Assembly (NCBI GenBank): GCA_002698785.1
Contig: PAAG01000019.1
Coordinates: forward strand, 1 to 64,000
Length of the DNA: 64,000 nucleotides
Direction of reading: 5' to 3'
Source: Verrucomicrobiales bacterium
GTDB lineage: Bacteria > Verrucomicrobiota > Verrucomicrobiia > Verrucomicrobiales > DEV007
This document shows positions 1 through 16,055 of this stretch, one piece after another. The first letter of the stretch is position 1. Each line of letters opens with the position of its first letter. A program made the translations under genes and the position numbers. The notes under the pieces were generated by a model, which had not been told where the DNA came from, made no database searches, and saw only the letters and a list, made by a program, of their open reading frames with translations.

Positions 1-908
1 CAAATCCATTGGGAGCTTCAGACATATCTAATCTCTTATGCCTTGATAAAAAGATCTACTTTTTTGCACAGGACGAAACTGAACAGCGAGCGCTGTGGAG
101 ATCAGATGGCACAGAAGAAGGAACGATACCGATCCATTTGCTCGCGGATGAGCAGGATATCGACGCCGAGTTAGTCACGAAAATGGTGGTCCTCGATGGA
201 ACGATTTACTTTGCCGCTGATGATGGAATCCATGGCGTCGAGCTCTGGATGAGCGACGGCACAAAAAATGGGACACGTCGCCTCTCAGACGATTTCAAAG
301 GACCGGGTTCGTCACTTCCAATTCCGGTTTCCACCAGAGACGGTGATCTGCTTTACTTCAGTACTGGAGGCCCTCTTGATTCATGGCGCCTTCGCCGAGG
401 TACCTACTACGAAGATGGTGACCCGGCCCTCTTTCAGCCCGACCTACTAGCAGGATACAATGATTCCACGATGCGCGGAAACGGTGACTACGATTCCCCT
501 AGTGAGACCCTATTTTTCACATCAAGAAGGGCGAAGCCGGTAATCGGTTATTTTCAGGTAGAGAACGACGGCCTTCTTCCAACAGAAATGATGTGGTCAG
601 GATCGAGAGGAAACTCTCTGTTCAGGGTAATTTATCAAACAAAAGAAAATAAAAACATTACCTCGGAAGTTACTACAGGCACTTACACCGATGATGAGTT
701 GGCCTACGCTGAGAAGGGAACAGAGATTAGAGTTTCCGTCTATCCCAACAAGCGGAAAATTCGAAAAGTCGTGCGCAGAGGCAATGGGAAACGTCGACGG
801 AAAAGAGTGAAATATTTGAGGCGTACGTTCATCACGAACGTTTCAGTAAAGTCAGTTCAAAATGATGACTTGTACGACGCGGGGAGGGTCATAATAAGAA
901 CACGCTGA
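1..908 (+). CDS. ELWxxDGT-repeat secreted protein with QNDG C-terminal domain (5' end outside window)
   Basis: The frame is open to the left edge, so only the C-terminal ~300 residues are present; the first in-window start (TTG at 9) is probably not real. Two clear ELWxxDGT-type repeats are visible (RALWRSDGTEEGT and VELWMSDGTKNGT), each preceded by an IYFxA strand; this motif family forms beta-propeller-like repeats in secreted proteins. After about residue 175 comes a different, basic domain with the motifs VENDG and NITSEVTTG, which matches the C-termini of the genes at 5796, 12105 and 15030. The last 60 residues are very rich in Lys and Arg. Substrate and role are unknown; an extracellular location is inferred from the repeat type and shared C-terminus. 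Confidence 0.75.
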   Translation, partial: NPLGASDISNLLCLDKKIYFFAQDETEQRALWRSDGTEEGTIPIHLLADEQDIDAELVTKMVVLDGTIYFAADDGIHGVELWMSDGTKNGTRRLSDDFKGPGSSLPIPVSTRDGDLLYFSTGGPLDSWRLRRGTYYEDGDPALFQPDLLAGYNDSTMRGNGDYDSPSETLFFTSRRAKPVIGYFQVENDGLLPTEMMWSGSRGNSLFRVIYQTKENKNITSEVTTGTYTDDELAYAEKGTEIRVSVYPNKRKIRKVVRRGNGKRRRKRVKYLRRTFITNVSVKSVQNDDLYDAGRVIIRTR

Positions 909-1261
909 GGGCGTTGCGTGAAGAGGGAGACATTCAGACGGTAATCTGCCAAGGACTATCTGGATATCTCGCTCGGGAAAGAGCAAAGACAGTCCCTCGT
1001 CGGGCAACAATCAGCCTCTCCCTATGAGGCGGGATTTACTCCAGATCTTTTTGCAACCTGCAATGTCCGCTGACTTCTGAAACCCCAGGAGAGCCCATTT
1101 CATATGGAAAATCGCTGAACACCTCCATTTGAGCGCGGGAAAAAGTGAATACTCGTGTCACACGCCTTAATTCGAGAACAAGTCCAAAAGGATGCCATCT
1201 CGTTTTCCCCTGATTTATTCAGTCTGGCGAGGCGGAAATTCACTGAATCCAAAAGCTCAGT
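909..1261. other. intergenic region, nothing recognised
   Basis: About 350 bases between two rightward genes. I see no convincing gene, RNA or strong hairpin. The leftward open frame overlapping it runs mostly through the antisense of the next gene and is not credible. It presumably holds the promoter of the following gene. Confidence 0.5.
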
Positions 1262-2584
1262 ATGAAAGCAGCCATCCCTTCTAAGATCACGATGCCAGCT
1301 CTGTGCATCTTCACCAGCGCGGTCGCCTTTTTTGCCAGTTTTTATCTCTACTCTCACTTTTCGAGACAGTCCGGAGATGCCATGGTCGAAAATTCTACTC
1401 TCCTGGACTCTCCAGAGCAGCCAGCTCCTGCCCCACAGGAGCCAAAGGCGGAGAAAGCAGCGATGGATCCCATCCCTGAAGTCGCGGAAAAGCCCGAAGA
1501 ACCGGCGCCGGAGCCAGAATCCCAAGCAGTAGTCGCGGAGAGCGCGCCGGAAGAGAAAGAGGCACTACCCGCCGAACCTGAGGCGCCCGTGGAGATAGTC
1601 CGAGCGGAAAACCAAGCTTCGGCAGGTAGTCCTCCGCCAGCGATAAATGAATCACTCGACGACGTCAGAGACGACCTTCTTTCGAAAGAACAAAACGTCA
1701 TTCAAGTTCCCGATTTCCCGGTTCCTGGAACGACTGCGACTCCGGAGCCGAGCGGCAGCAATTCCAGTTCGGACTCTGTCGCGAGTGCTAGTAATACTCA
1801 GTCCGAAGCGTCAGAAACTCTAACACCTGATTCACCAATCGAGCCAGGCACCGATCCCGATACGACACCCGACACGGATCCCACAGATCCGACGGATGAT
1901 GCGCCCGCCGCCGGGAGCGTACGGGAAGGCCGTCTCGTTGCCGCACTGGAAAGAGGCGGCGGTGAGAACAGCGGTTTAGCGAATGCCCTTACGCGAGGAT
2001 CATCCCGGACAGATGGGACCGAACCCGTCGAAGAGACCGAGACGACTGCCATCTCTCTCGTTTCGGACGAATCCGTGACTACCAATACACTACCAGAACA
2101 AGAAACTTCTACTGAGCAATCCATGCCTACCCGACCCGCTCCCCAACACGGTCGGGTAGTCGTTGGTCAGAGTGATCTTTACTCGAATGCGCTGGGAGGA
2201 AGCGTGAGCGGTTTGATAGGAGGAATGGACGCGCCTGCCTCGACGCAGCGGGTTCAATTTCGCGGAGGCAACGCAGAGACAGGATTTCAGCACTCGAACG
2301 GTTCCCGGTTTGCGGCCACGCCGAATGTGGTGAATGCAAACATCACTTCGCCAGCGAGGGGCATCCCGAACAATTCGGCAGTATCGGCAGCTGTCAGTAA
2401 TGGAGCTGCGGCCAGCGGAGGCAATGGTTCTTCCCCTGTGATTTCTCCATCTGTCCCGCCTGGAATCGCTAACGGCTCGCCTTCGACAAGCAACGGGAAC
2501 GCAGGCCCTCCGACGAACTTCCCGGGTAAAGCCGGATTTACTCCTCCGGGATTGTCGATCCGCGTGAATGCGGGGCGTCGCTAA
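1262..2584 (+). CDS. membrane-anchored Pro/Glu/Ser/Thr-rich low-complexity protein
   Basis: A 440-residue protein of unknown function. A short N-terminal cytosolic stretch is followed by one hydrophobic segment at about residues 12-30, then an extended region of alternating Pro, Glu and Ala (about 50-130), a Ser/Asp/Thr/Pro stretch with a DTTPDTDPTDPTD core (about 190-215), and a Gly/Asn/Ser-rich tail. There is no recognisable enzyme domain. The pattern of a single membrane anchor and long disordered acidic/proline segment resembles envelope-spanning linkers, but that is only analogy. Codon-position behaviour and the clean ATG after a long non-coding stretch support it being real. It converges on the nucleotidyltransferase-like gene, with 3 bases between the stops. 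Confidence 0.6.
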   Translation: MKAAIPSKITMPALCIFTSAVAFFASFYLYSHFSRQSGDAMVENSTLLDSPEQPAPAPQEPKAEKAAMDPIPEVAEKPEEPAPEPESQAVVAESAPEEKEALPAEPEAPVEIVRAENQASAGSPPPAINESLDDVRDDLLSKEQNVIQVPDFPVPGTTATPEPSGSNSSSDSVASASNTQSEASETLTPDSPIEPGTDPDTTPDTDPTDPTDDAPAAGSVREGRLVAALERGGGENSGLANALTRGSSRTDGTEPVEETETTAISLVSDESVTTNTLPEQETSTEQSMPTRPAPQHGRVVVGQSDLYSNALGGSVSGLIGGMDAPASTQRVQFRGGNAETGFQHSNGSRFAATPNVVNANITSPARGIPNNSAVSAAVSNGAAASGGNGSSPVISPSVPPGIANGSPSTSNGNAGPPTNFPGKAGFTPPGLSIRVNAGRR

Positions 2585-2587
2585 ATT

Positions 2588-3514
2588 TCACACATCGACA
2601 TTGGCGGCTTCTTCTTCTGTATCGATGTCTTCTGCAAGTCGGAGTATATCGACTACGGGATGCCGCACTCCCCTGCCCGATTGTTTTAACGGGCTCTCGT
2701 GACGGAGAAAGATGCCACCGATCGCGTCTTCCAGATCAGGGATGGCAAGGTCGCCTTTCCTCAGGTGATTTGCGATTTTCAGTCCGTTGCCGATCACGGA
2801 ACCGGTCAAGCGAGGAACGCGAAAGGAAACGAGCGTTCGTAGATCATCAAGCAGAAGTTTTCCTAACACGGAACGAATCATTACTCGTTTCCGGGTTTCC
2901 ACGGAGTGGTTTCGGGTCTTGTAGGCGAGGTGGAGCAATTCGTAGAGCATAGCCAGACGCATCGCGTCGGGTTGGATCACGGCGAGATGTCCGGGAAGGA
3001 TACTGACCGGGGCCTGTCCTCGCTCTGGCAGCAGGCTGTAGGCAGGCTTCCACCCGAAGGCACCGAGTTCGTCGTCCACCTCGGGCTTTCTGACAAAGGG
3101 CACCCAGACCCCACAGGGCTCATCGGTTTTGTAGCATTGATAGAGTTCGTCGAGGTCCTCGGCGGTCAATAGAACGTCGTAGGCCAATAGGCCGAGAGGA
3201 CCGTCGCCGTGATGTTCTTTGTGCCCCTCTACAGCTGCTTTGAGATTCGTTGCGACGCTGCCGTTGGTGTCGACGATTCGCGCGCCGAGGCCGAGAGGCT
3301 CGTAGATGCTCGCGGGCCCTGCGATGGTGACCGGTCCGAAGCCACTCGATTTTTCGATCTGTTCGACAAGGAGCGCGATCAATGGGACATCGCCCACTTT
3401 GACCTCGGCCCCTTTGTAAAACGTGGACAAGGAATGGAGGTCGGGACTTGTCTCAGGGAGGTGGCCAGGCGCGTGGTCGCTACCAGCCATAATGGTAATC
3501 GGGATCCGTTCCAT
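2588..3514 (-). CDS. MobA-like nucleotidyltransferase family protein
   Basis: A 308-residue cytosolic protein resembling GT-A fold NTP-transferases (MobA-like, NTP_transf_3). The N-terminus ITIMAGSD sits where the nucleotide-binding loop of the fold starts, then VPLIALLVEQI, a VTIAGP strand, and DTNGSVATNLKAAVE, which matches the usual pattern in which an Asn/Gly loop precedes the helix before the metal-binding strand; LLAYDVLL supplies the Asp of that strand. The typical G-G-x-S-x-R-M loop is not present in canonical form, so the substrate cannot be assigned and enzymatic activity is uncertain. The C-terminal half (about 170-308) is helical with no match I recognise. It stands alone, convergent with the preceding gene. 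Confidence 0.65.
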   Translation of the reverse strand: MERIPITIMAGSDHAPGHLPETSPDLHSLSTFYKGAEVKVGDVPLIALLVEQIEKSSGFGPVTIAGPASIYEPLGLGARIVDTNGSVATNLKAAVEGHKEHHGDGPLGLLAYDVLLTAEDLDELYQCYKTDEPCGVWVPFVRKPEVDDELGAFGWKPAYSLLPERGQAPVSILPGHLAVIQPDAMRLAMLYELLHLAYKTRNHSVETRKRVMIRSVLGKLLLDDLRTLVSFRVPRLTGSVIGNGLKIANHLRKGDLAIPDLEDAIGGIFLRHESPLKQSGRGVRHPVVDILRLAEDIDTEEEAANVDV

Positions 3515-3619
3515 TTCCTTTACTTTACCCGATTTTGAGAGAGTTGAAAGAGATGAGAGCGCGGAGCTAATCGGGCCAAGATCTGCATGGTCTCTCTACG
3601 ATGATAGGATAAAAAAATA

Positions 3620-4234
3620 ATGAATGCGCGGTCTCTTCTTCTATCTCTCGGAATTCTCACCGCATTTGTCTCAGCAAAAGCGGACATCACCATCGAAGTA
3701 ACTGAATTTTCCGAACCAGAAATGGTTGTGATCTCGGCCTCCGGCTCCCTGAATACATCAAGCCTATCCAGTATGATTTCCGCATACGATGGAGGCGGCA
3801 TTTCCCCGGGCGACAAACTCATTCGTTTCTCCGCTCCAGGCGGAGGCACTGCGAGAATATCTTTTATTGGGACGGGCATGATCGATTTCGGTTCCGCCAG
3901 TTTTGTTGCTTGTGACTATTTCGAAGGTGACAATCTCGGACTTGAAGAAAGCCGCCTATCCTTCCCTACTACGTATTCCTCTGGAGATCCTCTTTCGAGT
4001 TCTATGGTCTTTCTCGGGGAATCGATAGCCTCGCTGGGAATTGATGAAGCGGGAGCTCCTTTTTCGGCGACGCTCGCAACGGGAGACAGGATTACGATCC
4101 GAATCGTCAGGCTCGTCGATGCAGCCATACTTCAATCGACACAGGCAAATTTACTGAAGAGATTACGCATTCTAAAAAGGAGCAATAAGTCGCTGAAACG
4201 GAAACTCCGTGCGGCGAGACGGAGGGGGCGGTAG
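3620..4234 (+). CDS. small secreted protein with basic helical C-terminus
   Basis: A 204-residue protein with a good signal peptide (MNARSLLLSLGILTAFVSAKA, probable cleavage after residue 21), then a beta-rich domain of about 140 residues (ITIEVTEF..VVISASGSLN..) and a C-terminal amphipathic, highly basic helix (last 30 residues, about half Arg or Lys). The body resembles the secreted domain of many PEP-CTERM proteins, but there is no PEP motif or terminal hydrophobic helix; the basic helix takes that place. Two other secreted proteins in this window (47995 and 48817) also end in strongly basic segments. Function unknown. The start is preceded by an A-rich stretch (ATAAAAAAATA) with no clear ribosome-binding site. 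Confidence 0.65.
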   Translation: MNARSLLLSLGILTAFVSAKADITIEVTEFSEPEMVVISASGSLNTSSLSSMISAYDGGGISPGDKLIRFSAPGGGTARISFIGTGMIDFGSASFVACDYFEGDNLGLEESRLSFPTTYSSGDPLSSSMVFLGESIASLGIDEAGAPFSATLATGDRITIRIVRLVDAAILQSTQANLLKRLRILKRSNKSLKRKLRAARRRGR

Positions 4235-4518
4235 TTTCTCCTATCTGCCAGATTTCGATTTTATTCCGCGGCAACGGGTGGGTTGGATGGACACTCTAAA
4301 GAGGTGAACCAAGGAAGCAGACTGCACGACTTTCGCGATGCCCTCCCCTCAATCGTGCAAAATACCGAATTATCCCTACCACCTTTGATCCGCAAATCTA
4401 AGAGTCGAGAAATTCACTATAAACTACTCAATTATTAATTGTCATAGATACTGTTCGAGTAGAAATTTGGCGTCACAACACCGGATTCGTTTCCTGAATC
4501 TGCTACCCGCCTGCAAAA

Positions 4519-5739
4519 ATGAAAACCGTTCCGTTCCTCGTCGTACTGTGTCTTTTCGTATTCACAAGTCGCTCCACCCACGCAGATCAGCAAATCGCAG
4601 ACAACCTCTCAGTACAAGGTTTGGCTGTTGGTTTTGATGCGACTACGAATGAAAACTACGATTTCAGATCGTTGATCATCAAAGAGAACAACACTCGACT
4701 CTTTTTTAATGATACTAGTAACAGCGGTTCGTTCCCTACGGTCAACTGGCTGCTGGAAGCCAACGACTCCAACAACGGAGGTCGGAACCAGTTCTCCATT
4801 ATCAACGACGATGCCCAGCGTGCCCTTCTCACCCTGGAAGCAGGCGCCCCGACAAATGCGATTTATCTTACCGACGGCGGAAACCTCGGCCTGAAGACCA
4901 ACGCCGCACAAAAGGACCTTCATATCGCCAGCTCTGACAGCCCTACCATTCGATTTGACCAGAACGATTCCGACGGCCTCCCTGAGCAGGTTTGGGACAT
5001 TGCAGGTAATGAATCGGCCATCCTTTTCCGCGACGACACTAATGGAACGATCCCTTTCCGCATCACGCCTGGCAGCCCCTCTGACGCGGTAGTTTTGACT
5101 CCCCTGGGTATGGGCCTCGGGTTCAACGGAGCCGAGCATAAGTTGCACGTAAGGGAGACAGGTAATGCCGAAGCTGCGGTGATCGAGAACACCAACACGG
5201 TTGTCGGCGGGCGCACTCTTCTCGAGCTCACCAACAACGGACCTGCTACCCTCGTGCTGAAAAACGGAACGGATGCAGCCACCGTCACTGAATTTGAAAT
5301 CACTGCTGACGGTGCAGGGTCTCTTTTGATTGGAACTCCGGGCAATCCTCTCGTCACGATCGATGGCAGCGGTAACCTTACCGCATCGGGAACAGTGAAC
5401 GGTTCCTCCGACCGCAATCGAAAGGAGGGATTTGCAGGCGTTGACGGATCTCAGCTGCTTGAAAAACTCTCTACTATCCCCGTCCAGCAGTGGTCCTACA
5501 AAGGTGAAGAGACCGTCCACATCGGACCCATGGCACAGGATTTTCACAAGGCTTTTGAGTTGGGATCGAGCAACAGAGTGATTTCCATGGCAGACGCCGA
5601 CGGGGTCGCACTCGCATCGATCCAGGCCCTGCACGCGAAAGCGAAGGCAAAAGAGAAAGAGATCGCAGACCTGCGAGAGGCGAATCGGAAACTGGAAGAA
5701 CGGTTGAGCAAGCTGGAGAAGCTCCTCGAACAGCCCTGA
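4519..5739 (+). CDS. secreted fibre-like protein with peptidase S74 intramolecular chaperone domain
   Basis: A 406-residue protein with signal peptide (cleavage near residue 22, STHA-D). The body (25-285) has beta-rich, Asn/Gly/Thr-rich repeats of the kind seen in trimeric fibres (DGGNLGLKT, LHVRETGNAEAAVIEN). Residues ~295-370 match the S74 endosialidase-type intramolecular chaperone: a GSSDRNRK start, LLEKLSTIPVQQWSYKG and HIGPMAQDF. In that family the chain self-cleaves at the Ser-Asp bond at the domain start, here Ser297-Asp298. The last 45 residues form a heptad coiled coil, as expected for trimer assembly. S74 domains are best known from phage tail spikes, but also occur in bacterial surface proteins. 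No phage genes are adjacent, so a bacterial surface fibre is the better reading. Confidence 0.85.
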   Translation: MKTVPFLVVLCLFVFTSRSTHADQQIADNLSVQGLAVGFDATTNENYDFRSLIIKENNTRLFFNDTSNSGSFPTVNWLLEANDSNNGGRNQFSIINDDAQRALLTLEAGAPTNAIYLTDGGNLGLKTNAAQKDLHIASSDSPTIRFDQNDSDGLPEQVWDIAGNESAILFRDDTNGTIPFRITPGSPSDAVVLTPLGMGLGFNGAEHKLHVRETGNAEAAVIENTNTVVGGRTLLELTNNGPATLVLKNGTDAATVTEFEITADGAGSLLIGTPGNPLVTIDGSGNLTASGTVNGSSDRNRKEGFAGVDGSQLLEKLSTIPVQQWSYKGEETVHIGPMAQDFHKAFELGSSNRVISMADADGVALASIQALHAKAKAKEKEIADLREANRKLEERLSKLEKLLEQP

Positions 5740-5795
5740 GTCCACCAAAACGAAGCCGTTCTCATTCCAAGATTCCCCTTTTGCCCCAACTCGAT

Positions 5796-8700
5796 ATGCG
5801 ACGCATCAAGCCACGCGAGAATCTCTTGCGGCGGATATTTCTGCTGGCGCTCTGCTGCGCCGTGATTTCCGCAGCGAGCGCTCAAGAAACGTTAACTGCC
5901 TCAGCGACGGTGCAGAATGGTCCTGTCTCAGCCGGTGAAACGGCAACGATCCTATATCAGTTCATCAATCGCCAAGATGAGGATCTCACGAACATCGATT
6001 TTTCAGTAACTCTTCCGCCCGGAGTCACACTCGCCACCTATGCCGGGACTCCCGTTCAAATTGGCTTTACTACTACCGGTACCCCATCCGGGGCGCCAGG
6101 TGAAAGCACGGCAAGTTTCACTGGAGCGGAACTGTTCGCGGGAGAGACTCTTGAATTCGAGATAGGTGTAACTGCCGCACTGCCAGGCAACTATTCTATT
6201 GTATCAGAACCGGCCTCCTACGACGTAGGGATGGACAGTTTCACGTCGAACGTCGCATTTACTACGCTGCACGTAGTCACAGACGACGCACTGTTCGGCT
6301 CTGCGCTGGACGTGTCTGTGAATGGCACGCAACTGGGTTTCACCGTCTACCTGGAAAACCTGGATTCCGATCCCCTCACCGACCTCAGTGCGGTCCTCAA
6401 TCTGGATGAGGTCTTCGGTGACTTTCACTACGTTGTTTCTTCCCAACCCACTTTTCTGAGCGATCCGGGCACCTTTGAGCTGGATCCCAATTACAACGGA
6501 AGAACGAACACGGAGCTCATTCTCGATAAAACGAATAATCTCCGGTCCAGCGACGATGCTACTCTTGGTGCCGGAGCCTCGGCACAGATCTATTTCACAG
6601 TCGATGTCGCGAATGTTACCGACGAGGGGCTAGGATTCGGCATGTTCGAAGCGCAAGTCATGACAGGCGCACGGACTGCCGCCGGATTAGTCACCACCGA
6701 CCTATCCGACGCAGGTACAAACCCAAACCCGGGTAGCAGTGCCGGCGGTCCCGGTAACGATGACCCCACTGCTTTCTCGGTCGGCATTACCCCTTCGATT
6801 GGTGCTGCCCTGACCACGAACAACATCATTCACAACTCTAATGGAACTCACACGGTGTCTCTACAGCTGGCGGTAGAAAACCTTGGCGAAGCGGAGCTGG
6901 ACAACGTCGCAATCACCCTCGACCTCAACTCCGTTTTCGGAGTAGGTAATTTTTCAATGCTCAACAGCAGTGTGCGTAACGCAAGATACAAAGCAAACAG
7001 CGGGGAACAGCTGATCATTAACTCATCATTCAATGGAAATACGTCTCAGGAAGTGTTCAATCCTGGCAGCACTCTCCAGCCTGCGGAAAAGGCGGTGATT
7101 CTACTTGAAGTAACGATTAACACCGTCACCGATCAGGGCTTTGGCCTTGGAGTCTACCAGGCGCAATTTTCTGTGAGCGCGGACAGCGTCACCGGCCCAT
7201 CAGTGAATGATCTTTCGGACGATGGAACTGTCACCGATACTAATGGCAACAAGGATGCCACTGAAGCAGGTGAAAATGACCCTCATCAAATCGCCGTTCT
7301 TTCCAGTCTTGGCCTATCCACCGATATAACGGCCGTGGGAACCAGTGTTACGCTGGACTACTACATGGAAGTTTTCGGACCTCTCACATTCGACAACCTC
7401 ACGCTTTCTGACAATTTGGATGGCGTCTTTGGACAGGAGAATTACGAGGTTACTTCCGTGTCTCTCATTGATGACCCGGGAACAATTCTCCTCAATCCGC
7501 TTTTCAACGGTGGGCTCGACACCGAGATCATTGCCGATGGCAGCACACTTGCCGGAGGAGACACGGCCCAGATCCGAGTTGAAGTGACTCTTTTCCGCTA
7601 CATCAATCAGGGCCGTGGTATCGGCGGTTACCTGAGTACCGCCATCGCCACCGGTTTGCAGAACGGTGATCTCATGGTGACGGAAACGTCTACCTCTGGA
7701 ACGGATCCCGACCCCAATGGCGATGACAATCCGGTTGAAGCAGGGGGCACCTCTTTCGTTGCATTTCCAGAATCACTGGTCGGTGGAGCTCTTGAAGCTT
7801 CGGTATCAGGAACAGAAGTTACCTTTAATCTCTATCTGGAGAGCTTCGGTGCCAGCACCGCTAATGAAGTGACATTACCGTTCGACCTCGACGAAATCTT
7901 TGGAGAAGGAAACTACACAATGATTGTTGCCCCTTCTTTCATCGTCGATCCAGGGACAATGATCTTGAACGGGGCATACGACGGTACAAGCGACACGAGT
8001 GTGCTTGGCATAGGTTCGACATTGGCGAGCGGAGCAACTGCCCAAATCACCCTGACCGTCGACGTGGCGACCGTCGAAGATGTTTCGGACCTTGGCTTCG
8101 GTGCATACGAAGCCCAGTTCGAAGTGACATCGACGGGTCCCACAGGAGCTATCGCCAGCGACCCCTCCGATTCCGGGCTTAATCCTGATTCTAGCGGAGA
8201 TTCCAATCCATCCGGATTTGGAGAAGACGAGCCCACCCCATTCGTCATCGGTGAGGGCGCACTCGGAGTCGCACTTCGCACAGAAGTTCAGGGCACACTG
8301 GTTCGCCACATTGTTACCCTGGAGAATCTTGGCGATACCCCGATCGAAAACCTTTTCATGGAGAACCCATTGAATCCGGTTTTTGGAAGCGGCAACTATT
8401 CCATTATGCAGCAGCCCAGACTGATTGAAGGACCAAGTACGGTTCTCCTCTCGCCTCAGTTCTTCGGGTTCAACATCTTTGCCAGGACAGTAGTGGGCGG
8501 CAGCATCGGCGCCGGTGAGACGGTTCGCTTCGACTACATCGTCTCGATAAATACAGTCACGGATGTAGGCAACGGATTCGGAGTTTATCTAAACCAAGTC
8601 ACCCTCACTGGCAATAATCTCGAGGGAATGTATATGGATGTCTCCGATGAAGGTGTTTTTCCAGACAGCAATGGAAACGGGGCTGCTGACGATGCGGGAG

Positions 8701-11700
8701 AAGACGACGTTACCAGGAGCACTATCGGTGAAGAGCAGAACATCGGTATGGCTGAGACGGCATCCGTAAGCGGAACCGAAGTCACTCTGGACTTCTTTTT
8801 CGAAAACCTCGGAAATGTGACGCTGGACAATCTCAGCTTCGAAAAAGACCTCGACGAAATTTTCGGTTCGGGAAATTACACGATTACCACGCCTCCTGCT
8901 CTCATTGACGATCCCGGCACTGTGATGCTCGCTGGCACCTTCGATGGAAGTAGCAGCCAGCAGGTCTTAGGTGCAGGCAGCACGCTCGCCGTAGGAGACA
9001 CCGCGCAGATCCAGTTGGTAGTTGATGTTACGAATCCGATTGATCAAGGATACGGCTTTGGCGTATACCGAAGCACCTCACAAGTATCTGGCTCTTCGCC
9101 CACTGGACTCCCCGCATTCGACTTCTCGGACGCTGGAAACGATCCCGATCCCAATGGAAACGGAACACCATTCGAAGATGGCGAGAATGATCCCCTTTTC
9201 TTCGACGTCGATCTCTCCATTATCGGCGTGGCGCTTAATGCGAGTATCGATGGGGCTGTGGTGACCTTCGACTACACAGTGAGAAACCTGGGAGATGTGG
9301 AGCTTACCAACATAAGTATCCCCCACAATCTCGACACGATCTTCGGAGCTGGAAATTACTCCATCGAAGAAGGTCCATTTTACCCTGACCTGTACCGTGG
9401 ACTTCTTCTGAATGAAAATTACGACGGCAGCATGGATACCGAGTTGATCTTTGGTGGAAGCCTCAAAGCAGGTGTCACCGAGAGATTCCGTGTTGTCGTG
9501 AGGGTCAGTGATACACCTGAACTTGGCATGGGGCCTGGCATGTATACCACCCAGGTGACAGTCACCGCAGATGGTCCCAACGGTCAAATCACTGACGTAT
9601 CCGACGACGGAGACGATACGGACATGGATGGAAACGGTCAGGCCAGCAGTAGCGGAGAAGACGACACCACTGCATTTACCGTAGAAAGATCCCGAGTCGG
9701 TGCCGCTCTCAAAGCTACCGTAGACGGTGGTTACGTAACTTTTGACTACACCATCACGAACATTGGTGGTGCAGACCTGACAAATGTCAGCGTGCCGCAC
9801 GACTTCGACGATATCTTCGGAGAAGGAAATTACGCCATCGCCCAGGCACCATCCTTCCCAGGCATGTCGAACGGCCTCGTGTTGAACTCGAATTTCGATG
9901 GCAGCATGGATACCGAACTCATTGCAAGTGGCACTATCCCAGGTGGCGCGAGTTCGAAATTCCGCGTCGTCGTATTGCCCAATACGCTTATCGATTCGGG
10001 ATCTGGCATTGGTGTTTACAGCACTCAGTTTACCGTCACTGCCGACGATCCGATCGAACAATTCACTGATCTTTCAGATAACGGTGAGGTAGCCGACACG
10101 AATGGCAACGAAATGCCCGACGATGCGGATGAAGACGATCCCACGACGTTCACGGTGACACGCTCCCCTATCGGTATCTCTCTCACGGCAAACGTGAGCA
10201 ATCCACTGGTAACCTTCGAGTATACCGTAGAGAACTTCGGCAATCAGGTACTTACGAACGTGAGCATTCCACATGACTTCGATACCCTCTTTGGCGCGGG
10301 CAATTACACCATCGACCAAGCGCCTTTCTTCCCAGGCATGTCCAACGGATTGACCTTGAATGCGATGTTCGATGGCAGCATGGATACCGAGCTTATCGAT
10401 GGCGGAACCGTCCCGATCGGCGCTACCGAGGTCTTCCGCGTAGTCGTCCGTCTCAGCGACACGATCGACTCTGGCTCTGGGCTTGGCACCTACAGCACCC
10501 AGGTAACAGCGACAGCGAACGACGATATTAATACAGTTTCCGACATCTCGGACAATGGAACCGATCCCGATCCAAACGGAAACGGCATGCCTAACGAAGC
10601 GGGAGAAAACGACGCCACACCGTTCCAAGTCGATCGCACCTACCTCGGTGTCGCCCTGCAGGCCAGTGTTGATGGATCGCTCGTTACTTTCGATTACACC
10701 GTGGAAAACCTCGGGGCCGAGACCTTGAGCGACATCAGTCTTATTCACGATCTTGACGCTGCATTTGGTTTCGGAAACTACGTGATTGAAGAAGCACCTT
10801 TCTTCCCAGGAGCTTCCTTCAACCTCATGCTGAATGGCTCGTTCAATGGCGCCGGAGACACGCAGCTCGCCGCAGGCGGAACGATCGCTGCCGGTGTCGT
10901 TGAGACTTTCCGAGTCGTTGTTCGTGTGACTACTCCCATCAACTCGGGAATGTATTCCACCCAGGTCATCGCGAGCGCCAGCGACCCGATAGGAACAGTC
11001 ACCAACGAATCTGTCAGTGGAACCGATCCTGATCCAAATGGAAATGGCAATCCGAACGATGTCGGCGAAGATACTGAGACATCAGTCACCGTTCCGAGCA
11101 GCGTGGGAGGGCTCATCTGGTCCGACCTAGATCGCAATGGGATCTTTGATGGTGGCGACGAAGAAGGCTTCCCGAATGTCACCGTATTTCTCGACAACAA
11201 CGGGAACGGAGTTCTCGATGCAGGTGAACCTTCTGATATCACCGACGTGGATGGTATCTACCTGATTGAAAACCTCGCGGCAGGCTCCTACAACCTGACA
11301 GTTGTTCTAACAACACTTCCACCTGACATGTTCCCTACCAATGGTAGCCTACCCCATGTCACGAGTATCGGAACTGGCCAGTTCCTTCGCGGTGCCGACA
11401 TCGGCTTTGCCGTCCCCCCTCTGGTTTCCCTTCCCGACCTCAGGAACGGTGAGAAGCGCAATCCTCGCTCACACCGTTTCGATAATGTCTATGGAGGCGG
11501 CCAGCGCCTCAACGCACGAACCAAGCGACCGAGCTTCCGCTTTTTCTTCTCCGTCCAGAACGACGGCTATTACGCCGACCGGATCCTGACGCAAGGGAAA
11601 GGAATCTCGAAGCGCAAGTTCCGCGTGAAGGTTCAGAACATCGGAGGTGGCAACGTTACCGGTGCCTTCCTTTCACGAGGACATGTGGCAAATATCGAAT

Positions 11701-11888
11701 CGGGAGAAGTAAGCAATTACACCGTCCGCATCGTGAGCAAGATCAAGACACGGAACAATAGATTCAATGCACGGATCCGCTCACGCTCGATCGCACTTCC
11801 CGGACCGAGAGACTTGAACCGAATAAAAATTCGATTCGACGCCAGCAGAACGGAGACAGACACATCCATTCGCCCACCGGGACTCTAG
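5796..11888 (+). CDS. giant secreted protein: DUF11-like domain, ten tandem modules, SdrD-B-like domain, QNDG C-terminal domain
   Basis: A 2,030-residue secreted protein. I prefer the ATG at 5796 over the in-frame TTG at 5781 because it gives a normal signal peptide (MRRIKPRENLLRRIF.. cleaving near SAQ). Order of domains: an N-terminal DUF11/CARDB-type beta domain (about 30-165); ten copies of a ~160-residue module (about 168-1765), each with VTFDYTVENLG, DxIFGxGNY, a DGSxDTELI strand and a terminal acidic loop such as DPDPNGNGxPxEAGEND, likely to bind calcium; an SdrD B-like domain (GLIWSDLDRNGIFDG .. NGNGVLDAGE, about 1770-1840); and the QNDG domain (about 1880-2030) with the motifs NVYGG, VQNDGYYAD and NVTG. 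It is probably an extracellular adhesin or surface-layer-like fibre. The flanking genes are also secreted proteins. Confidence 0.85.
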   Translation: MRRIKPRENLLRRIFLLALCCAVISAASAQETLTASATVQNGPVSAGETATILYQFINRQDEDLTNIDFSVTLPPGVTLATYAGTPVQIGFTTTGTPSGAPGESTASFTGAELFAGETLEFEIGVTAALPGNYSIVSEPASYDVGMDSFTSNVAFTTLHVVTDDALFGSALDVSVNGTQLGFTVYLENLDSDPLTDLSAVLNLDEVFGDFHYVVSSQPTFLSDPGTFELDPNYNGRTNTELILDKTNNLRSSDDATLGAGASAQIYFTVDVANVTDEGLGFGMFEAQVMTGARTAAGLVTTDLSDAGTNPNPGSSAGGPGNDDPTAFSVGITPSIGAALTTNNIIHNSNGTHTVSLQLAVENLGEAELDNVAITLDLNSVFGVGNFSMLNSSVRNARYKANSGEQLIINSSFNGNTSQEVFNPGSTLQPAEKAVILLEVTINTVTDQGFGLGVYQAQFSVSADSVTGPSVNDLSDDGTVTDTNGNKDATEAGENDPHQIAVLSSLGLSTDITAVGTSVTLDYYMEVFGPLTFDNLTLSDNLDGVFGQENYEVTSVSLIDDPGTILLNPLFNGGLDTEIIADGSTLAGGDTAQIRVEVTLFRYINQGRGIGGYLSTAIATGLQNGDLMVTETSTSGTDPDPNGDDNPVEAGGTSFVAFPESLVGGALEASVSGTEVTFNLYLESFGASTANEVTLPFDLDEIFGEGNYTMIVAPSFIVDPGTMILNGAYDGTSDTSVLGIGSTLASGATAQITLTVDVATVEDVSDLGFGAYEAQFEVTSTGPTGAIASDPSDSGLNPDSSGDSNPSGFGEDEPTPFVIGEGALGVALRTEVQGTLVRHIVTLENLGDTPIENLFMENPLNPVFGSGNYSIMQQPRLIEGPSTVLLSPQFFGFNIFARTVVGGSIGAGETVRFDYIVSINTVTDVGNGFGVYLNQVTLTGNNLEGMYMDVSDEGVFPDSNGNGAADDAGEDDVTRSTIGEEQNIGMAETASVSGTEVTLDFFFENLGNVTLDNLSFEKDLDEIFGSGNYTITTPPALIDDPGTVMLAGTFDGSSSQQVLGAGSTLAVGDTAQIQLVVDVTNPIDQGYGFGVYRSTSQVSGSSPTGLPAFDFSDAGNDPDPNGNGTPFEDGENDPLFFDVDLSIIGVALNASIDGAVVTFDYTVRNLGDVELTNISIPHNLDTIFGAGNYSIEEGPFYPDLYRGLLLNENYDGSMDTELIFGGSLKAGVTERFRVVVRVSDTPELGMGPGMYTTQVTVTADGPNGQITDVSDDGDDTDMDGNGQASSSGEDDTTAFTVERSRVGAALKATVDGGYVTFDYTITNIGGADLTNVSVPHDFDDIFGEGNYAIAQAPSFPGMSNGLVLNSNFDGSMDTELIASGTIPGGASSKFRVVVLPNTLIDSGSGIGVYSTQFTVTADDPIEQFTDLSDNGEVADTNGNEMPDDADEDDPTTFTVTRSPIGISLTANVSNPLVTFEYTVENFGNQVLTNVSIPHDFDTLFGAGNYTIDQAPFFPGMSNGLTLNAMFDGSMDTELIDGGTVPIGATEVFRVVVRLSDTIDSGSGLGTYSTQVTATANDDINTVSDISDNGTDPDPNGNGMPNEAGENDATPFQVDRTYLGVALQASVDGSLVTFDYTVENLGAETLSDISLIHDLDAAFGFGNYVIEEAPFFPGASFNLMLNGSFNGAGDTQLAAGGTIAAGVVETFRVVVRVTTPINSGMYSTQVIASASDPIGTVTNESVSGTDPDPNGNGNPNDVGEDTETSVTVPSSVGGLIWSDLDRNGIFDGGDEEGFPNVTVFLDNNGNGVLDAGEPSDITDVDGIYLIENLAAGSYNLTVVLTTLPPDMFPTNGSLPHVTSIGTGQFLRGADIGFAVPPLVSLPDLRNGEKRNPRSHRFDNVYGGGQRLNARTKRPSFRFFFSVQNDGYYADRILTQGKGISKRKFRVKVQNIGGGNVTGAFLSRGHVANIESGEVSNYTVRIVSKIKTRNNRFNARIRSRSIALPGPRDLNRIKIRFDASRTETDTSIRPPGL
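6298..11095 (+). repeat. ten in-frame tandem repeats of about 455-505 bp
   Basis: Unit starts, read from the IGVAL-type strand, lie near 6298, 6796, 7300, 7780, 8264, 8740, 9222, 9697, 10170 and 10645; the last ends near 11095. The early units are most divergent. Units 7-10 are closest to each other: three of them (9850, 10330 and 10800 regions) share APxFPG, and MDTEL recurs, which suggests recent duplication at the C-terminal end of the array. Every unit keeps the reading frame and ends in an Asp/Asn-rich loop. Confidence 0.85.
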
Positions 11889-11906
11889 AACCGTCCCCAG
11901 CCAGTG

Positions 11907-11940
11907 CGTTCCGTGTGAGAAGCAATACTCACACGGGACG
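11907..11940 (+). terminator. strong hairpin after the giant secreted protein gene
   Basis: Thirteen-base arms 11907-11919 (CGTTCCGTGTGAG) and 11928-11940 (CTCACACGGGACG) pair fully except for one G-T wobble, around an 8-base loop. It lies 19 bases after the stop at 11888. No T-run follows, so a factor-independent terminator is likely but not certain; an mRNA 3'-end stabiliser is an alternative. Confidence 0.6.
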
Positions 11941-12104
11941 AATACTTCTACCAGGTCGTTTCGTGCTCTATGCACTGGGCAAATTGCACGGCAGAAATTT
12001 GAATATTTCTGAAAGTGTCACGTTCTAACGGGGTAGTTGCCTTTTGAGAGGCTCACATGCTGTGATAGTATGTAGTCCCCTCGAACCCAAACCACCCTCT
12101 CACG

Positions 12105-13652
12105 ATGACCTCTTCCCATCACTATAGAACGAAGATTCTCACCGTCCTCACCTTCGCACTTCTCGGTATGGCACCCCTACACGCCGACCTTGGGGACATT
12201 TCTACCGTGGCAGGTACTGGCGGAACCCTGCACACTCCCGAGAACGTTCCCGGACCTGCTACGAGTAATGGCCTGGCTGATCCGACGGCGGTGGCATTCG
12301 ACACAAACGCGAACGCTTTTTATCTCATCGCCGGTAACCTCGTCCGAAGAGTCGACGTCCCCACTGGCACTCTCACGGCCTTCGCCGGAACAGGTGCCCC
12401 TGACTACACCGGTGATGGTGGCCAGGCGACAGCCGCTACTTTCGACAACCCTCAGGGACTGGCAGTCGACGGAGACGGAAATGTCTTTGTCGCTGATACG
12501 TTCAACGGCGTCGTCCGAAAAATCGATATCGTCACAGGAATCATCACGACCATCGCCGGAACGGGAGTGAACGGAACCACGGGAGCAGATGGTGACCCCG
12601 CCACGTCTTCGCAGTTGAATAATCCGGTAGGTCTCGCATTCGATTTGGATGGCGACTTACTGATCGGCACATTCGACGTCATCCGGAAAGTCGATATCTC
12701 GGAAGGCACGATTTTCACCATCGCGGGAACTGGCGGCGACCCCGGATACAGCGGTGACGGTGGTCTCGCGGTCAATGCAAAATTGCGTTTTGCGAAGGAT
12801 ATCGCCGTGGTATTCGATGGTGATATTGTGTTTACGGATCATCTCTCACACGTAATCCGGAGGATCGACTCAATCACTGGAAACATTACGACCATCGCGG
12901 GAAATGGAATGGCAGGTTTTGCGGGAGACGATATGGATGCTGGAAGCTCCCAGATCGATGAGCCAAACGGAATCGCTGTCGACTTGTCCGGAAACATCTA
13001 TTTTGCCGACCGCAACAACGAGCGAATTCGAAAGATCAATTCTACGACTAACATTATCACCACCATCGCCGGGAATGGAAACACTGGCTTCGCCGGGGAT
13101 GGCGGTTCCGCCCTCCTCGCCGAGTTTAACTCACCGCTTGGAATCGCGCCCAGCAATAACCAGACGCTCTATGTCGCGGACTACGCCAACAATCGCATCC
13201 GAGCCATTGAGGGTGTTGGAACATTCCTTCCCATCTTTCGGCCTGACAACCTCATCGGTCCGAAGTTTTCTAAACTGAAAGGTAATAATATTTACGGTGG
13301 TCCCGGAGGGCAGAAGAGCCGTGAGAAAATCACAAAAGGTCGCAGAGCGAAGATCTTCTACATCATCCAGAACGATGGGAATACTGACGACCAATACCGC
13401 CTGCGAGTGAACAAAGGGAGACGCAAGTTTTTCAAACCGAAATGGATCGCTGGCGGACGGAACATCACCGCGGCCATCCAGACAGGAAATTACGTGACAC
13501 CATCAGTCCCCGAAGGCGGTTCCTTTCTCGTAAAGGGCAAGATCAAGCTCAAGACCGACAGAAAGAAAAACGTCTACCGATTCTCGTGTTCGTCGGTTTC
13601 CAACGGTTCGAAGAGAGACTCTGCTATCGGCCTGATCAAGGTGAAGAAGTGA
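12105..13652 (+). CDS. NHL-repeat beta-propeller secreted protein with QNDG C-terminal domain
   Basis: A 515-residue secreted protein with a signal peptide (cleavage near LHA-D, residue 27). Residues ~30-375 hold six to seven NHL repeats of the form TIAGTGxxGYSGDGG..LxxPxGLAVDxxGNVFVADxxNxxIRKID, which fold as a beta propeller used for binding proteins or polysaccharide. The C-terminal ~135 residues are the QNDG domain: DNLIG, GNNIYGG, AKIFYIIQNDG, NITAAIQTGNY and a strand-rich basic tail. There are no catalytic residues I can identify. A binding or surface role is inferred. Its 3' end overlaps that of the next, convergent gene by 17 bases. Confidence 0.85.
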   Translation: MTSSHHYRTKILTVLTFALLGMAPLHADLGDISTVAGTGGTLHTPENVPGPATSNGLADPTAVAFDTNANAFYLIAGNLVRRVDVPTGTLTAFAGTGAPDYTGDGGQATAATFDNPQGLAVDGDGNVFVADTFNGVVRKIDIVTGIITTIAGTGVNGTTGADGDPATSSQLNNPVGLAFDLDGDLLIGTFDVIRKVDISEGTIFTIAGTGGDPGYSGDGGLAVNAKLRFAKDIAVVFDGDIVFTDHLSHVIRRIDSITGNITTIAGNGMAGFAGDDMDAGSSQIDEPNGIAVDLSGNIYFADRNNERIRKINSTTNIITTIAGNGNTGFAGDGGSALLAEFNSPLGIAPSNNQTLYVADYANNRIRAIEGVGTFLPIFRPDNLIGPKFSKLKGNNIYGGPGGQKSREKITKGRRAKIFYIIQNDGNTDDQYRLRVNKGRRKFFKPKWIAGGRNITAAIQTGNYVTPSVPEGGSFLVKGKIKLKTDRKKNVYRFSCSSVSNGSKRDSAIGLIKVKK

Positions 13653-14937
13653 TGTGAATCCCATCAATATCCACGTCGCACTGGCATCCGGATAGCTCGC
13701 AGGTTTTCAGCAAGGCGTCGAGAAGTGTAATGTTAGTAACCCTGAGAGAGATGCGATTCTCCGATGGATCGAATTCTTTCCATTCGCCTTGGATGATATT
13801 TTGTCGCCCTGAAAATGAGGTCCGATAAAACTCGAAATCAAGTTTCCTCGCATAATGATTGAGAAACTGGATCGCCACTCCGAGCGGAACATTTTCCCAA
13901 TCAATCAAAGGGATACGCTCCTCGTGCAATAAATCTACCAGCCTTCGCCTACCCGCCTCCCGCATCGGTTCGGTCCATTCCATCTGCGTGCTTTCGAGAT
14001 ATTCTCTGATGCGTTCGTGTTTATCCGGGTAGTTCCGCACGATCAACTGATCGGAATCAGAATCGAAGACTGCAAGGGTCCCCGTCGGAAACGGAATGCC
14101 CGCGTTGACAAAGACAGTCTTGATATCGGCTTCCGACTGTTTCATTAGCGCTACAAAGTCCGAGGGTGGAACATAGACATTGGTGAACAAATGTCCTTCT
14201 CCTAATGATATCGGCTCCAGCCCGATCGTATCCGGATAGACCTTGTATTGTAAGTAGGCGAGCGAAGCCGTGTATCGCAGTGCCTCATTGAGAGGGACGT
14301 TGTGCAGTCGCAAGGTGATCGGTGTTTTCTTCAACTCTGCGAAATCCTTCTCGGAAAAAATCGGATGATTGTCCCGACCAAAGCCGAAGGGAACCAATTC
14401 GTCAGCTGAGCGCCCTTCCCCAAGAAGGACTTCTACGCCGAGTTTGTGTAACGTTTCGAGAGCGGTTTCGAGATCTGTATCCTTGAATTCTACCTTCGAG
14501 ATCAACAACTCGTCCAACAGCTGCTGATTACGAGCCACAGCCGCCTCTTCTTCTCTCAACCGCTGCCCCCCTCTACTATCACTCCACTCCACGACAGCTT
14601 TGACCATCAACTGCTGGTAGGGAGCGTTCTGAACAATGATCTCCTCAGTCTCTTCGTCCACTTCTATACTCGCGCCGGTCGGAAACTCGACCCCGTTTTC
14701 GGCAAGAAATAGCTTTGGATTGTTCTTCGCTACCTTTTCTGAGAGATAGTATCGACGTGTCTGAAACCCGTCTTCGTCGGCTGTTTGTTCTTCTGCTGGT
14801 TGGAAGGTAATAGATTCAGCGATGACAGTGTCCTCCCCCTCTGGCAAGACATTGTCATCGCTCTTCTGAATCAGTATCACTCCCACCAAGACAGCGATCC
14901 CGACAACTGCGAGAGAAATCTGTTTTCGAAGTATCAT
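13636..14937 (-). CDS. membrane-anchored protein with secretin/STN-like repeats
   Basis: A 433-residue protein when started at the ATG (14937); the upstream TTG adds only seven residues. One transmembrane anchor (about residues 8-24) is followed by a mostly periplasmic region. Segments such as VEFPTGASIEVDEETEEIIVQNAP and IPFPTGTLAVFDSDSDQLIVRN repeat the same pattern, and each is followed by conserved stretches with VPLNEALRYTASLAYLQY and VPLGVAIQFLNHYA. These resemble the short N0/STN beta-alpha domains of secretins and TonB-dependent proteins, which are common in verrucomicrobial proteins of unknown role. There is no secretin barrel. Likely an envelope scaffolding or sensing protein; this is inference. 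Confidence 0.65.
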   Translation of the reverse strand: MILRKQISLAVVGIAVLVGVILIQKSDDNVLPEGEDTVIAESITFQPAEEQTADEDGFQTRRYYLSEKVAKNNPKLFLAENGVEFPTGASIEVDEETEEIIVQNAPYQQLMVKAVVEWSDSRGGQRLREEEAAVARNQQLLDELLISKVEFKDTDLETALETLHKLGVEVLLGEGRSADELVPFGFGRDNHPIFSEKDFAELKKTPITLRLHNVPLNEALRYTASLAYLQYKVYPDTIGLEPISLGEGHLFTNVYVPPSDFVALMKQSEADIKTVFVNAGIPFPTGTLAVFDSDSDQLIVRNYPDKHERIREYLESTQMEWTEPMREAGRRRLVDLLHEERIPLIDWENVPLGVAIQFLNHYARKLDFEFYRTSFSGRQNIIQGEWKEFDPSENRISLRVTNITLLDALLKTCELSGCQCDVDIDGIHITSSP

Positions 14938-15029
14938 CAGGGATGACGACTGAAGCAATCCGTCACCCGGTTGTATCGCGGCAAGAAAGGGAGGTCAATA
15001 GCAATGCCCCCTCATGAACAAACCAAGGC

Positions 15030-16055
15030 TCAGCGGAACTGGATGTAAGCAGCAGCGTTGTCTTTCTCTTTACCAGAGCGGGCGAGAAACCGAACTTCGT
15101 TGTCCCGGCCAGGGTAGAGACCTCCCCAGAGTGGTCGGGTATTGAGGCGATACGTGATGCGGACCCTATTTCCGGGAGCAAGGCTGAATCTCAACTTTCC
15201 GGTCTTCACCTTGGCGGTGACGTTTTTCTTCTTCCCATTTATGCGCGAGAAAACCGTGGAGTCGGTTCCCTGCGGACGTTGCACGAACGCACGGAAGGCG
15301 ATGTTATCGTTCTGCGTTCCATCATTTTGAAGTTGTAGAAAAACCTGCGCCGTATGAGCACGCGCGATAACACCAGCGTATTTCAATGTCTGCTTTTTAG
15401 AGACCTTTTTCTTGTTGTAGATATTATCTCCTCGTAGACGGGGAAAAGAACGCCCGATCAGGATATCAGGAAGTGAAGTTTTCCCAACACCGCCACCGAG
15501 GTTTACAGGAGGGTCGGGTAAAATGTTGATGATATAATTGTAGGTCACCCCATTGCTGGTGGTGGAAAATGTGCCGGGGTTGAATAGCTCGCCGACCGTC
15601 GATTGTGGAGAGGCACCGGGAATAATGAACACTCCCGTGCCGGAGGCCGAAATCGTGACCGCACCAGCATTGAAGCCGCCGATTGTACCACCTGCCCCAG
15701 CGATACCCATGCCCTGTGGAGGACCGCTGCCGAATTGAAAAAGCGTAATCGCCTGCTCGGCACCTCCTGATCCAGCAGTCACTGCCATGAGGTCGCTGCC
15801 TGCTTGTGCGGGAATCTGAAACGTAGTCGTATTATTCAGGAAATCCCCCGGCCCAGGCTCCGCGATCAATCCGGTGGAGAACGTGAACGGCGTCGGTGCC
15901 TGCGATCCAGAGCCCGTCACCGTGAACTGATTCGATGATTCCTGCCCTGTGATGGTGATATTTATCTGCGCCATCGAAGGCAAAGCAGCAACGAGCAGGC
16001 AGAAAAACAATGAGGCGAATACGGCCCTACGAGCCGAGGATTGATGAGCGATCAT
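15030..16055 (-). CDS. secreted protein with QNDG C-terminal domain
   Basis: A 341-residue protein with a clear signal peptide (cleavage near SMAQ, residue 30). The N-terminal body (31-190) is Gly/Ser/Thr-rich and beta-like, with no family I recognise; it resembles the PEP-CTERM type of secreted body seen in the 3620 gene. From about residue 195 it carries the QNDG domain: LPDILIG, RLRGDNIY, AQVFLQLQNDG, NVTAKVKTG and a basic strand-rich end. The arrangement, variable body plus conserved C-terminus, is the same as in the genes at 1, 5796 and 12105, though this one is on the opposite strand and therefore a separate unit. Confidence 0.75.
   Translation of the reverse strand: MIAHQSSARRAVFASLFFCLLVAALPSMAQINITITGQESSNQFTVTGSGSQAPTPFTFSTGLIAEPGPGDFLNNTTTFQIPAQAGSDLMAVTAGSGGAEQAITLFQFGSGPPQGMGIAGAGGTIGGFNAGAVTISASGTGVFIIPGASPQSTVGELFNPGTFSTTSNGVTYNYIINILPDPPVNLGGGVGKTSLPDILIGRSFPRLRGDNIYNKKKVSKKQTLKYAGVIARAHTAQVFLQLQNDGTQNDNIAFRAFVQRPQGTDSTVFSRINGKKKNVTAKVKTGKLRFSLAPGNRVRITYRLNTRPLWGGLYPGRDNEVRFLARSGKEKDNAAAYIQFR

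Follow-up and report, generated by a model that had tools for sequence, protein, structure and literature searches.

Four proteins encoded in a 64,000-nucleotide stretch of a Verrucomicrobiales genome (GenBank assembly GCA_002698785.1, contig PAAG01000019.1, positions 1 to 64,000; the whole stretch is called the window below) end in copies of one domain, here called the QNDG tail. Judging from its pattern of occurrence in sequence, we give an even chance to the reading that the QNDG tail serves, at the C terminus of exported proteins, to retain them at the surface or in the matrix.

Four Window Proteins Share a C-terminal Domain

We refer to the four proteins by the parts that precede the tail, their heads: ELW, with ELWxxDGT repeats; FIB, a fibre-like protein with DUF11, DUF7507, and SdrD_B modules; NHL, with an NHL/teneurin-type propeller; and BET, in which nothing was recognizable (Table 1). 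The heads are as unlike one another as an earlier note on this DNA had described. ELW lacks its N terminus because the window begins at the contig end, and its domain starts ~100 bases upstream of the position given in that note.

Table 1. Features of the window discussed in the text (net, net charge; aa, amino acids; ORF, open reading frame; pLDDT, predicted local distance difference test)
Feature	Position	Strand	Remarks
ELWxxDGT repeat protein (ELW), head	3..428	+	N terminus truncated; TIGR04534 5.5e-26
ELW, QNDG-type C-terminal domain	429..905	+	159 aa, net +12, 2 aa before ORF end
Basic helical C terminus of an apparently exported 204-aa protein (3620-4234)	4121..4231	+	Unrelated to QNDG
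Fibre-like protein (FIB), head	5781..11423	+	Long; DUF7507/DUF11 modules, SdrD_B-like domain (Pfam)
FIB, QNDG-type C-terminal domain	11424..11885	+	154 aa, net +21, 17 aa before ORF end
NHL/teneurin-type propeller protein (NHL), head	12105..13232	+	TEN_NHL 2.7e-29, NHL 1.3e-15; signal-peptide-like start
NHL, QNDG-type C-terminal domain	13233..13649	+	139 aa, net +25; AlphaFold2 pLDDT 93.4
BET, QNDG-type C-terminal domain	15033..15479	-	149 aa, net +21, 2 aa before ORF end
BET, head	15480..16055	-	Matches no known family; signal-peptide-like start

The four window tails are ~140–160 amino acids long, and their alignment revealed shared residues: PD close to the N-terminal end, a Y, NDG, N(I/V)T, and, toward the other end, a D. 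Identity of the other three to the NHL tail was 20–28%. With the NHL tail as query, phmmer linked BET (1.4e-8) and ELW (2e-6); FIB was linked neither by phmmer nor by a single-query genome search with the NHL tail. Leave-one-out profiles, each built from the other 57 of the 58 tails collected from the source genome (see below), recovered ELW at 7.2e-17, FIB at 9.3e-28, NHL at 1.8e-35, and BET at 2.7e-25, and a profile built without all four window tails matched no ORF outside the 58. The window tails match no Pfam or NCBIfam family. These results confirmed that the four tails are copies of one domain, as the earlier note had claimed, with a resemblance that is low yet above chance. Two of the motifs listed in that note vary more than it stated: ELW has VENDG instead of QNDG and LLAG instead of LIG, and FIB has LRNG.

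The Tail Is C-terminal in All Source-genome Copies

The NHL tail alone led to 56 places in the 7.0-Mb source genome, the loci around these places gave 58 domain-bearing ORFs (defined stop to stop), and a profile of the 58 tails found 62 copies. All 62 are C-terminal, and never more than one is present per ORF. The domain ends 1–38 residues from the ORF end in all of the 58 (≤5 residues in 43) and 0–19 residues from it in the four additional copies. A signal-peptide-like start was found in 51 of the 55 tailed proteins with a complete N terminus, and the four that failed the rule nonetheless have a hydrophobic N-terminal stretch. This rule was a crude one (positive n-region, hydrophobic stretch, small residues) rather than SignalP, with the start sought over 150 codons; nearly the same rule, with a span of 200 codons, accepted 118 of the 262 ORFs in a 400-kb sample of the source genome, taken from stretches of two contigs that lie at a distance from known tails. 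None of the 58 tails contains a membrane-like hydrophobic stretch. A Pfam scan of the 58 gave a best E-value of 0.0037 and no family in more than two members, and no published description of the domain was found in the open-access literature searched, subscription papers not being covered.

The tails are thus C-terminal, present once per protein, numerous in the genome, and attached to apparently exported proteins that are otherwise unrelated, which is the sorting or anchoring pattern that the earlier note had recognized.

The Dense Form Is Seen in One Genus

Among 56 genomes comprising the source organism and its relatives, matches were confined to its own genus: 15 of the 33 genus genomes were positive, the source genome included, and 18 had no match, several of the latter being incomplete. 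Copies numbered 62, 62, 45, 40, 39, 35, 28, and 26 in eight genomes and 1–8 in seven more; the counts of the tail-richest relatives are to be read as at least these numbers, the best 71 candidates having been scored. The tail profile matched none of the 2 genomes of the family and none of the 21 of the order. In 387 genomes of the phylum (at most the best 10–13 candidates per genome) two others matched, one of them weakly (G191); the second, from another family of the phylum (G422), has one internal acidic copy in a 10950-aa open frame (L068, G422:C6). A second profile, applied at the same depth to 288 genomes, matched the source genome alone. The dense form, with many copies per genome, is restricted, as seen, to one genus. 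A single tail-carrying clade was ruled out by an rpoB tree of 26 genomes, on which the tail-rich state (≥20 copies) requires seven changes.

A DNA pattern was compared with 84,980 named genomes; the domain is encoded in 21 of the 24 loci picked out and absent from the other 3. Sixteen of the 21 come from eight Verrucomicrobiales-type metagenome-assembled genomes (MAGs), with one terminal copy each (one of these loci, L097, is cut at its end, and its C terminus is outside the view). Several internal copies each were found in a Rhizobium MAG (L083), a Candidatus Zipacnadia MAG (L092), and a member of the Verrucomicrobia (L100), and a single terminal copy each in a groundwater Verrucomicrobia MAG (L079) and a Chloroflexi MAG (L084). 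These five genomes hold 1–8 copies apiece; the copies outside the lineage come from MAGs, in which binning errors are possible. A scan of viral contigs with a single pattern from an 11-row alignment, made in view of a phage origin, gave no relative.

The internal copies in the Zipacnadia, Rhizobium, and Verrucomicrobia MAGs have the same fold motifs as the tails (PD, G, Y, Q, ND, T, S, D). They differ from the tails in being internal, mostly tandem, and acidic; each genome carries 5–8 of them, confined to one or two proteins. With these copies at hand, the proposal that the domain is specific to this lineage had to be abandoned. The related expectation, that copies found with a profile would lie at the C terminus of signal-peptide proteins, was borne out in the source genome, and internal copies, named in the earlier note as a refuting result, occur outside the lineage.

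Charge Distinguishes the Tails from Internal Copies

The tails of the source genome are uniformly basic, with an isoelectric point (pI) of at least 9.79 in 58 of 58 (median 10.99) and a net charge of median +21 and minimum +8 (≥+12 in 57 of 58). Their heads have a median pI of 4.33 and a median net charge of −34.5, with a pI above 7 in 1 of 58; three of these heads are cut at the locus end. The idea that exported proteins of this genome commonly have basic C termini was rejected by the 400-kb sample, where a net charge of at least +12 over the last 100 amino acids was seen in 2 of the 118 signal-peptide-type proteins versus 47 of the 58 tailed proteins. Tail charge does not balance head charge, the two being uncorrelated (rho −0.05, n = 55).

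In 36 regions from 10 other genus genomes, chosen from the best-scoring matches, the median tail net charge was +17, and 39 of 40 profile rows ended within 40 amino acids of the ORF end, the last at 41; the 40 include four surplus rows, to which L343 contributes a second gene, L345 two partial rows, and L352 an overlapping frame. Internal stretches of the domain outside the genus were net negative in 17 of 18 cases and +2 in the remaining one (two stretches, in L288, are partial, and the 18 leave aside further copies in G434). The copies in one Chloroflexi MAG were C-terminal in 3 of 3 cases, with net charges of +15, +16, and +16.

Lysine or arginine occurs in at least 35% of the tails at 33 alignment columns, 18 of which lie within predicted strands. 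These columns often alternate, as in 28-30-32, 101-103-105, 112-114-116, and 132-134-136. At 30 of the 33, no more than 15% of the 13 internal copies compared have lysine or arginine, the exceptions being columns 70, 101, and 132. Positions equally conserved in the internal copies are D5, G17, Y21, Q27, N47, D48, T79, S121, and D129, and the main positions other than charge that set the tails apart are G9, N77, V78 (I in internal copies), and G85. Because most residues of the QNDG-type motif are common to the internal copies, the motif mostly reflects the fold, and charge is what changed most. By this comparison of sequences, the distinguishing property of the lineage's copies is probably a lysine/arginine-rich surface and not the QNDG motif; the listed motifs, being shared with internal acidic copies, are read as fold residues and do not stand as a sorting code.

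The Tail Is Predicted to Be an Ig-like Sandwich

An AlphaFold2 model of the NHL tail from 35 sequences had a predicted template modelling score of 0.86 and was all beta apart from a turn and a single short helix. Foldseek and VIA-align both placed it among immunoglobulin (Ig)-like sandwiches; in VIA-align, 253 of 983 aligned chains had Z ≥ 8, with a best Z of 10.8 (3.0 Å over 123 residues). The domain is therefore confidently predicted to be an Ig-like or fibronectin type III-like β-sandwich, and the structure match gives the fold, not a function. The top VIA-align match was the N-terminal domain of PorA, a cargo of the type IX secretion system (T9SS), and glycosidase, complement-type, and HAP2 domains scored within about one Z unit of it. 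No solved T9SS C-terminal domain was among the 50 matches listed in either fold search, a result that is uninformative.

Unrelated Basic Tails Follow the Choice-of-anchor Q Domain

We scanned 55 heads with Pfam, leaving out three giant proteins, and found 54 families, 25 of which were listed; among these are SGL (11 heads), NHL (10), SBBP (6), FG-GAP families (4–5), and beta-helix (3). Recurring families are mostly propellers, FG-GAP, Ig, and haem-type. One head, an M36 peptidase, has the T9SS-dependent M36 family as its closest match (2e-197; 658 bits, below the cut-off of 885), and another resembles, far below cut-off, a family of hyaluronic acid endo-lyases (6.3e-20).

The NCBI choice-of-anchor Q domain is present in 10 of the 55 heads. 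NCBI applies the name choice-of-anchor to domains that are followed by one kind of C-terminal sorting signal in some species and by other kinds in others. The domain gave 77 matches in 13 of 21 genus genomes, and we read with a home-made profile what follows it in part of these 77, counting readable ends; rows whose end lies outside the fetched stretch, such as L107 with a basic visible end (+14), were left out. In tail-bearing genomes, 17 choice-of-anchor Q proteins have a QNDG tail directly after the domain or within ~90 residues of it (one of the 17 runs up to the border of the fetched locus), and one more has it much farther downstream. Another 14 end in a basic tail of 50 amino acids (type-b; judged helical by eye; net charge between +14 and +25), and two end in a basic tail of ~90 amino acids (L106, G000:C49, +26; L129, G000:C6, +24). 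In QNDG-free genomes two ends are visible, one with a net charge of −15 (L114) and one terminating with the choice-of-anchor Q domain itself (L234); the ends of most such proteins in these genomes lie outside the view, in frames of up to 18544 amino acids.

The 50-residue tail was found in 8 of 15 QNDG-positive versus 1 of 18 QNDG-negative genomes, the latter being a weak match in a 60-aa ORF, and the copy numbers of the two tails correlate across the 33 genus genomes (rho 0.71). A replacement of PEP-CTERM by the QNDG tail across the genus was also considered and rejected, the two showing no relation (rho 0.12, n = 33).

As a separate observation, the choice-of-anchor Q domain of four QNDG-free genus members (G004, G007, G024, and G029) lies mostly inside frames of 1905–18544 amino acids, with one of 503.

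Searches for Known Sorting Signals in the Source Genome and Genus

The known C-terminal sorting signals considered here either combine a peptide motif with a membrane helix and are handled by a sortase-like enzyme, or are a T9SS domain handled by a translocon. The T9SS tail model TIGR04183 had two matches in the source genome, of 21.3 and 19.4 bits, both below the 23-bit cut-off, and the former lies inside a 1185-aa ORF, well upstream of that ORF's QNDG tail. Four of the 33 genus genomes each gave a single TIGR04183 match of 23–28 bits (cut-off 23); among them is G028, a genome with many QNDG tails. A search for SprA matched 0 of 33 genus genomes and likewise left control genomes unmatched. 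PEP-CTERM (TIGR02595) had no match in the source genome with its 62 QNDG tails, exosortase itself not being searched; a loose LPxT[GAN] string occurred in 1 of 58 tails, without a membrane-like stretch, sortase itself not being searched. In the source genome, the PEP-CTERM search and, at its cut-off, the TIGR04183 search agree with the earlier statement that the tail is neither a PEP-CTERM nor a T9SS signal.

Neighboring Genes and Other Window Features

ECF (extracytoplasmic function)-sigma-like genes, recognized by eye, adjoin tailed genes in six loci (L023, L028, L035, L036, L046, and L047), and in five of the six a Ser/Thr-kinase-like gene stands alongside; regulation is possible.

In the window, the protein encoded at 4519-5739 (+) has an endosialidase-chaperone (Peptidase_S74) domain near its C terminus, a domain known from phage tail spikes. 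A 440-aa protein encoded at 13636-14958 (-) matches stretches of the type IV pilus outer-membrane family Amuc_1098 (4e-30, though well short of the family cut-off). The 204-aa protein at 3620-4234 has a net charge of +15 over its last 60 residues and −11 over the remainder, and a helix at residues 168–201 is predicted by a model made from the single sequence, with low confidence overall (pLDDT 39). Comparison of its tail with the type-b profile gave nothing significant, so the likeness is one of composition only.

Discussion

In the retention that we consider evenly poised, a tailed protein would be exported by the Sec route on its N-terminal signal peptide, and its last ~140 residues would fold as an Ig-like β-sandwich with many strand and loop positions turned to lysine or arginine. 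The resulting basic surface would bind polyanionic glycans of the envelope or extracellular matrix and so hold the acidic, variable head in place. The two non-homologous basic tails found in the same slot would serve the same job.

The closest working analogue appears to be the basic cell-wall-binding region of Lactobacillus surface-layer (S-layer) proteins, where, according to PMC2571106, a conserved, positively charged terminal region binds a variable exported protein to cell-wall polymers; in L. brevis proteins of the SlpA type, the predicted pI differs sharply between body and anchor region (PMC2571106). A high-pI terminal region on a low-pI body, as in the L. acidophilus S-layer type, is also what the tailed proteins show. 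The Lactobacillus anchors belong to Gram-positive S-layer proteins, whereas the QNDG tail is a predicted Ig-like domain carried by dozens of unrelated Verrucomicrobiales proteins, and the likeness carries no claim of homology.

More specifically, and with a confidence that falls a little short of even, we propose that retention is coded by charge. At least three unrelated basic C-terminal modules, the QNDG sandwich and the 50- and 90-residue tails, would occupy the choice-of-anchor slot, and the QNDG tail would have arisen from an acidic internal Ig-like repeat made into a terminal domain covered with lysine and arginine, with the same having happened in Chloroflexi. Since the tails are unrelated and share charge, a bulk property fits them better than a specific receptor.

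Several observations weigh against retention by charge. Weakly basic tails occur in two genus genomes (+1 in G003 and +2 in G010), and the C-terminal copy in the groundwater Verrucomicrobia MAG has a net charge of 0. G9, N77, and G85, conserved in the tails but not in the internal copies, could belong to a specific signal. In tail-bearing genomes, the ends of three choice-of-anchor Q proteins are of other kinds (net +11, 0, and +12). The co-occurrence of the 50-residue and QNDG tails, taken over five independent pairs, gave 4.7 the same way and 0 opposite (p = 0.0625), which is too few to be significant, and QNDG copy number rises with genome size too (rho 0.38). Finally, the patchy distribution, with dozens of copies or none, is also expected from a dedicated machine.

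Such a machine is the main rival to a passive anchor: the tail may be a secretion and attachment signal for a dedicated outer-membrane translocon, as the T9SS C-terminal domain is. Lineage-specific paralogous suffixes, many per genome and carried by proteins related only there, mark sorting systems in the logic of Haft and Varghese, as set out in PMC3237569, with PEP-CTERM, LPXTG, and GlyGly-CTERM as examples. The QNDG tail shares this suffix behavior, along with a strict C-terminal place, and differs from those signals in having no tripartite motif, membrane helix, or basic cluster. It resembles the T9SS C-terminal domain (TIGR04183) in its position on many unrelated exported proteins and differs from it in being twice as long and in the lack of an above-cut-off match in the source genome. 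The T9SS domain is likewise β-rich. A translocon would also agree with the seven changes on the rpoB tree, the choice-of-anchor Q heads, the M36 head nearest a T9SS-dependent family (although below cut-off), and the PorA domain as best structural match (although many Ig-like folds follow close behind). However, the source genome has neither PEP-CTERM nor an above-cut-off T9SS tail, and the T9SS matches in the genus are marginal, one each in four of 33 genomes. Apart from charge, few positions are conserved in the tails only, three unrelated basic tails occupy one slot, and the C-terminal basic form is present in a Chloroflexi MAG, most Chloroflexi having no outer membrane. We therefore regard a dedicated translocon as unlikely, if still to be reckoned with.

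It is less probable again that the tail targets food and not the organism's own cell by binding a polyanion from outside, for example hyaluronan, alginate, extracellular DNA, or a sulfated polysaccharide of algae. A basic Ig-like domain would suit this role, sulfatase-like genes (named by eye) recur in the neighborhood of tail genes (7 ORFs across 5 loci), and one head matches the hyaluronic acid endo-lyase family, far below cut-off. However, among the 25 listed of the 54 head families there is one glycoside-hydrolase domain (GH85_C, 2 members), and carbohydrate-binding modules are usually not restricted to the C terminus. That the tails are periplasmic retention devices binding peptidoglycan or anionic lipid, with the proteins staying inside, agrees with the Sec-type signal being the sole one seen and no outer-membrane export route having been identified, and it is most improbable given the FG-GAP, choice-of-anchor, Ig-array, and M36 peptidase heads, which elsewhere are usual on surface proteins.

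If the QNDG tail is a charge-based retention module, salt, polyanions, or charge neutralization should release the tailed proteins. The profile can be used for naming exported proteins in a little-studied, uncultured group. With no sorting motif or helix, no T9SS match, and up to 62 tailed proteins per genome, the QNDG tail could be a main route by which these bacteria furnish their surface.

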